Positions 27,707 through 27,841 of a stretch of DNA of 37,641 nucleotides are shown in pieces. This stretch comes from Betaproteobacteria bacterium. GTDB taxonomy: Bacteria; Pseudomonadota; Gammaproteobacteria; Burkholderiales; SG8-41. Under the pieces are notes generated by a model. It saw nothing but the letters and a program-made list of their open reading frames with translations. It searched no databases and was not told the origin of the DNA. Every line of letters begins with the position of its first letter. The first letter of the stretch is position 1. Position numbers and translations under genes: made by a program. The DNA lies in contig CANHZX010000005.1 of NCBI GenBank assembly GCA_947465215.1, forward strand, positions 1-37,641. The letters run 5' to 3'.

Positions 27707-27733
27707 GAACTATTCGTGATTATAGTCGTCTGA
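27707..27733 (+). promoter_or_regulatory. Candidate sigmaE (ECF)-type promoter: (G)GAACTA - 16 bp - TCTGA
   Basis: GAACTA 27707-27712, 16-nt spacer, TCTGA 27729-27733; same spacing as the classical GAACTT-N16-TCTGA arrangement of RpoE promoters. Confidence 0.5.
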
Positions 27734-27739
27734 TTCTGC

Positions 27740-27841
27740 AGATGGCTTCGGCTGTCGCCCGTTTCTCCTCCCTGAGCGGGCGCCTTAATTCTAGTTAAGG
27801 CTCTTCGCCCCCGGTTTACTCCCTTTTACCGGGGGCTTTTT
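27740..27841 (+). ncRNA. Candidate small RNA with a CUCCUCCC loop hairpin and intrinsic terminator (hemB-engB intergenic)
   Basis: Hairpin 1 CGCCCG(27756-27761)/CGGGCG(27777-27782) with loop TTTCTCCTCCCTGAG; hairpin 2 GCCTTAA(27782-27788)/TTAAGGC(27795-27801); terminator 27807-27841. No flanking gene on the + strand needs this terminator. The 5' end is inferred from the promoter position. Confidence 0.6.
27807..27841 (+). terminator. Rho-independent terminator on + strand in the hemB/engB gap
   Basis: GCCCCCGGT (27807-27815) / ACCGGGGGC (27828-27836), 9-bp stem, then TTTTT; T-tract only in the + orientation. Confidence 0.85.

Follow-up and report, generated by a model that had tools for sequence, protein, structure and literature searches.

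A small RNA of the anti-hemB family with a sigmaE-type promoter between hemB and engB, and its relation to ErsA and sX13

The hemB-engB gap and its predicted small RNA

In the stretch of DNA analysed here (the window, 37.6 kb), hemB and engB (ysxC/yihA) both lie on the - strand, which confirms an earlier note made from the sequence alone, and the gap between them appears to hold a complete transcription unit on the + strand (Table 1). The gene order is hemB<- sRNA-> <-engB c4->, and approximately 83 nt separate the sRNA start from the start codon of hemB, with transcription heading away from hemB. The called EngB start codon is TTG. The T-run of the sRNA terminator overlaps the engB stop codon, and as such the sRNA and engB, which are convergent, share their ends. 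Every feature listed in the earlier note was found again in the sequence, and its promoter pair GAACTA-N16-TCTGA is the same site as our GGAACTA-N15-GTCTGA. The hairpins and terminator that it described are present, but a further 5' hairpin had been overlooked, giving a predicted total of four in the 105-nt stretch: the 5' hairpin with its UUCG loop, the CUCCUCCC hairpin, the second hairpin and the terminator.

Table 1. Positions of the small RNA, its parts and its neighbours in the window
Feature	Position	Strand	Remark
hemB	26645-27655	-	divergent neighbour of the sRNA
sigmaE-type promoter: -35 GGAACTA 27706-27712, N15, -10 GTCTGA 27728-27733	27706-27733	+	score 12.8
anti-hemB/ErsA-like sRNA, about 105 nt	27738-27842	+	predicted start (27738-27741), end at T-run
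5' hairpin GATGGC(TTCG)GCTGTC	GATGGC 27741-27746, GCTGTC 27751-27756	+	missing from Rfam model
hairpin 1, anti-SD; stem CGCCCG 27756-27761 / CGGGCG 27777-27782	27756-27782	+	
loop CTCCTCCC	27765-27772	+	complementary to GGGAGGAG (Shine-Dalgarno-like)
second hairpin GCCTTAA 27782-27788 / TTAAGGC 27795-27801	27782-27801	+	
intrinsic terminator GCCCCCGGT 27807-27815 / ACCGGGGGC 27828-27836, then T-run	27807-27842	+	
ACTCCC in terminator loop	27818-27823	+	
engB (ysxC/yihA), GTPase	27840-28433	-	convergent neighbour of the sRNA

The fold of the 105 nt has a minimum free energy of -48.3 kcal/mol (z = -5.5), and none of 200 shuffles was equally stable. A covariance model that includes the 5' hairpin (R1) was trained on 23 Burkholderiales copies, and matched the window at 27738-27843 with 100.2 bits, the window copy itself being within the training set. 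Among these 23 copies (alignment A2) the CTCCTCCC loop is nearly invariant, while the second hairpin has a CCCC loop in many gammaproteobacterial copies. When 61 beta- and gammaproteobacterial copies were aligned to R1, compensatory changes were seen at all 27 pairs of the four helices, including all seven pairs of the 5' hairpin. Paired cells made up 97.1%, against 31-51% with slid partners, and the covariation score was 0.605 against 0.02-0.08, values that lean in favour of the structure because the alignment was fitted to it. In a check on unaligned sequences, 62 of 119 loci had a significant hairpin immediately 5' of hairpin 1, compared with 12 of 114 control stretches. A plain MAFFT alignment of the beta and gamma copies, analysed with RNAalifold, misaligned the variable hairpins and recovered part of the structure only, and the covariance-model alignment was used instead. 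The Rfam anti-hemB model leaves out the covarying 5' hairpin, which is newly described here. The earlier note had named conservation of the loop and covariation of the stems as a check on its proposal, and both are found.

Family assignment and promoter

An Rfam scan of the whole window returned a single match, to RF02837 (anti-hemB), at 27755-27843 on the + strand; the match is full-length and, at 72.8 bits (E = 2.4e-15 over the window), clears the curated cut-off of 49.5. The position is also that of the family: the sRNA lies between hemB and engB, diverging from the former and converging on the latter. The locus is a member of an already known family, and its sequence places the sRNA in RF02837 anti-hemB, which is functionally uncharacterised and whose name is positional. 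The earlier note, which had proposed such a scan, named neither this family nor the relation to ErsA and sX13 described below; its + strand sRNA with an anti-SD loop is supported. The same RNA has been described in B. cenocepacia J2315 as ncS04, of 105 nt, encoded between BCAL0264 and BCAL0265 (order <- -> <-), with a RACE-mapped 3' end and a positive Northern blot (PMC5688073, PMC4603805), and it is listed as co-purified with Hfq (PMC4603805). Its expression did not change significantly in biofilm, stationary phase, starvation, glucose medium, osmotic stress, low pH or low iron (PMC5688073). The window sRNA and RF02837 (Burkholderia RNA 7; ncS04) are alike in sequence, structure, gap, orientation and length, but differ in that the Rfam model is without the 5' hairpin, the terminator loop is longer in the window sRNA, and the Burkholderia promoter is sigma70-like whereas that of the window copy is sigmaE-type.

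Other families fit less well. In a permissive Rfam scan, sX13 (RF02232) reached 27.8 bits against a cut-off of 50, and ar14 reached 26.2 bits, far below its cut-off. The betaproteobacteria toxic small RNA family mentioned in the earlier note (RF02278) scored 16.2 bits against 50, and membership in it is not supported; its CU-rich hairpin loops resemble those of the window sRNA, but the loci differ. RF01719, with a cut-off of 50 bits, is absent among the 20 matches listed at E up to 10, and the window sRNA is therefore not a member of that family. The window sRNA has the CUCCUCCC loop hairpin of the CcsR/Cuckoo RNAs. Those RNAs are co-transcribed with a DUF1127 gene in alphaproteobacteria, whereas the window sRNA is flanked by hemB and engB and has its own predicted promoter.

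That promoter was scored against the established E. coli sigmaE consensus, with a threshold of 11.5, and is the sole match of at least 12.5 on either strand of the window. The -35 element starts 32 nt before the start of the RNA model in the window, and 31-33 nt before it in most gammaproteobacterial and Pseudomonas loci. Loci were picked by RNA or EngB rather than by promoter. A sigmaE-type promoter lies upstream in 53 of 115 named, mostly betaproteobacterial loci, against 0 of 115 control windows farther upstream. For the gammaproteobacterial and Pseudomonas loci the counts were 34 of 50 and, in the controls, 0 of 50. As a caveat, the control windows are frequently within coding sequence. 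The sigmaE-type promoter claimed in the earlier note thus gains support from a distance that is kept across Beta- and Gammaproteobacteria, including the ErsA loci of Pseudomonas. The genome of the window encodes rpoE (323 bits), with rseA and rseB after it, and we infer that sigmaE transcribes the sRNA in this organism.

The promoter differs between clades. Two Burkholderia loci (L148, L177) have TATGAT at the -10 position and no GGAACTT, and the start, counted 105 nt back from the T-run, falls shortly after TATGAT, leaving 6 and 8 nt in between. Variovorax-type loci (L137, L143, L174) have CTTGAAA and GTTAAATT. Promoters in Burkholderia and Comamonadaceae look sigma70-like, while those of most other Betaproteobacteria seen look sigmaE-type. 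The two sX13 loci score low for a sigmaE promoter. A sigma70-like promoter in Burkholderia would explain why ncS04 is unresponsive to stress, and this offers a testable reason for the missing stress response of that copy. The stress induction proposed in the earlier note is probable for the lineage of the window only; the B. cenocepacia orthologue was not significantly changed in seven conditions.

Distribution and kinship

At E<=0.001, RF02837 matched 155 of 200 Burkholderiales genomes, 133 of them over the cut-off, and 127 of 291 genomes sampled across the class, where 14 exceeded the cut-off. A second match in the window's own genome (27.4 bits; L002, G000:C36) reads as an apparent tRNA gene plus terminator and was rejected as a false positive; weak matches therefore need positional support. 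Such support is common: among 54 matches with engB on the same contig, 42 are convergent with it and within 600 bp of its 3' end, at scores down to 27 bits, and many of the weak class-wide matches, those of 27-35 bits included, are real because they lie convergent near engB. Seventeen of the 29 best class matches adjoin engB, and other matches lie directly downstream of polA or beside the cytochrome c4 gene that flanks engB. Many gammaproteobacteria have the order polA-> sRNA-> <-engB, and hemB in the window occupies the place that polA takes upstream of the sRNA there. A survey of named loci (121 pattern matches in 120 named contigs) found hemB and/or engB/polA beside 91 matches: 50 had hemB and engB in the window arrangement, 24 hemB only, 16 engB (five with polA) and one polA only, leaving 30 with neither, some of which are chance matches or contig ends. 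Relatives of the sRNA are thus spread over Beta- and Gammaproteobacteria, mostly convergent with engB and either downstream of polA or divergent from hemB, a distribution reported here for the first time. Two weak matches outside the class were beside neither polA nor engB and were left out of the counts. At L003, L125 and similar Burkholderiales loci, anti-hemB also matches well at sites that are not near hemB or engB and have no sigmaE-type promoter, which suggests paralogues or relocated copies.

A covariance model (R2) was rebuilt from the 61 copies, which include no Pseudomonas copy and neither of the two sX13 loci, and was run against 34 loci (115 kb). All 12 Pseudomonas loci gave a match at the ErsA position (21.9-28.9 bits, E 9e-5 to 4e-3), and the two Xanthomonas-type sX13 loci were matched as well (at 21.9 and 27.6 bits). 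In the 115 kb there were 21 matches with E<1, every one of them at the engB/polA position. The Pseudomonas loci had been found with RF01719 in the family of a genome recognised by its RsmY RNA, and polA and engB surround the RNA in 11 of the 12, the twelfth having polA only. One Pseudomonas-type genome (G172) has no copy beside engB, its ErsA being on another contig. Single ErsA scores are modest, and the case for kinship comes from the R2 match combined with position and promoter. Both ErsA (RF01719, Pseudomon-1) and the window sRNA are convergent with engB, have a sigmaE/sigma22 promoter at the same distance (placed in the window as in the 10 Pseudomonas loci scored), and share the 5' hairpin and a C-rich terminator loop; ErsA differs in having a U-rich linker in place of the CUCCUCCC hairpin 1 and in lying downstream of polA rather than beside hemB. 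ErsA strictly depends on sigma22 (AlgU) and responds to envelope stress (PMC7565897). The sX13 RNA of Xanthomonadaceae likewise has C-rich loops and is detected by R2, and lies downstream of polA, but no sigmaE-type promoter was found for it and it acts without Hfq. Intermediates link the families, since one genome (G182) has four tandem sRNA copies in its polA-engB gap (L103, G182:C33:11500-15500) that score up to 41.8 bits with the anti-hemB model, 48.3 with that of sX13 and 37.1 with that of ErsA. Together with the R2 matches to every ErsA and sX13 locus tested, these copies show a common sequence-structure profile for all three. Multiple sRNA copies also occur in G279, G731 and Nitrosospira briensis (L189), the second copy in N. 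briensis apparently being without its own sigmaE promoter.

On this sequence evidence, anti-hemB appears to be the betaproteobacterial orthologue of ErsA and a relative of sX13. Our literature search found no paper linking anti-hemB to ErsA or sX13 and none naming ErsA and sX13 together, and the ncS04 paper mentions neither. We think it quite likely that the three form one ancient superfamily, which has sat beside engB since Beta- and Gammaproteobacteria last shared an ancestor. Its promoter would at first have been of the sigmaE type, and would have been exchanged later for a sigma70 one in Burkholderia, Comamonadaceae and Xanthomonas. If so, a sigmaE anti-SD sRNA has kept its locus, promoter and structure over the whole depth of these classes. 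The kinship also answers a question left open in the sX13 paper, on related sRNAs at the polA loci of other bacteria (PMC3771888). Spot 42 (E. coli spf) has the slot in common (polA, sRNA, convergent engB/yihA), but differs in structure and regulation and gave no match to R1 or R2; the superfamily may be ancestral to the Spot 42 slot.

Proposed function, alternatives and candidate targets

Given the sequence, covarying structure, synteny, promoter conservation and homology to ErsA and sX13 observed here, the likely explanation as a whole is a sigmaE-induced, Hfq-assisted anti-SD sRNA that belongs to the anti-hemB family and is orthologous to ErsA. RNA polymerase with sigmaE (RpoE) would start a monocistronic + strand sRNA of about 105 nt at 27738-27741, and transcription would stop at the sRNA's own terminator, next to the 3' end of engB. 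Its four hairpins would expose C-rich loops, CUCCUCCC in hairpin 1 and ACUCCC in the terminator, that may pair, probably with Hfq, with the G-rich Shine-Dalgarno regions of mRNAs, and this pairing would lower translation of the target mRNAs under envelope stress. For the window sRNA itself, Hfq binding, anti-SD action and the existence of such targets are predictions that agree with its relatives: sX13 uses its C-rich loops to repress mRNAs that have G-rich motifs near their translation starts, although it functions without Hfq (PMC3771888), and ErsA post-transcriptionally represses algC and requires Hfq for one target. The observation in the earlier note is confirmed as real, and its interpretation is partly supported. 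For anti-hemB, an RNA with no assigned function, this means a probable regulator in sigmaE, a class of mechanism, and ErsA as a relative that has been well studied.

An anti-hemB sRNA with the same loop-SD pairing could instead be transcribed constitutively by sigma70, the sigmaE-like pair being a remnant. This would agree with ncS04, unregulated in every condition tested, and with the Burkholderia, Comamonadaceae and Xanthomonas-type copies, which are sigma70-like or lack the sigmaE pair; we nevertheless hold it unlikely for the window, where the pair is near-consensus with a conserved 15-nt spacer, sits at -32 as in ErsA, and is accompanied in the genome by rpoE-rseA-rseB. Less probable still is that the RNA titrates or mimics the anti-SD end of 16S rRNA, and so is directed at the ribosome or toxic in a general way, instead of regulating specific mRNAs. 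Its loop does include CCUCC, the anti-SD core, and overexpression of ncS27, a different CU-rich double-hairpin RNA, slowed growth, but sX13 and ErsA act on defined mRNAs and the match to the toxic sRNA family is just 16 bits. The Rfam name would imply a cis-antisense regulator of the engB-hemB transcript, and the sRNA is indeed opposite the engB-hemB intergenic strand. However, it begins upstream of hemB and heads away from it, has no hemB next to it in most gammaproteobacteria and lacks engB as a neighbour in others, and conserves its loop and covarying structure, and we regard a cis-antisense role as the least probable of these readings.

Under loop-SD pairing by a sigmaE-induced sRNA, candidate targets would carry the complement of the loop before their start codons. 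A search of the window's own genome for GGGAGGAG-N2-9-ATG gave 12 sites, against one in a reversed control, and five of the loci listed start TctC-type receptors, four of them Pfam-confirmed. These strong-SD candidates are indistinguishable from generic strong-SD genes, and no target is claimed because the control SD AAGGAGG also precedes TctC-like genes. As a separate observation, the TctC-type receptor family has strong SDs also where GGGAGGAG is absent, and several of its tripartite tricarboxylate receptor genes in the window's own genome (L248, L250, L251, L252, L253) start with GGGAGGAG, which is exactly complementary to the loop of the sRNA.
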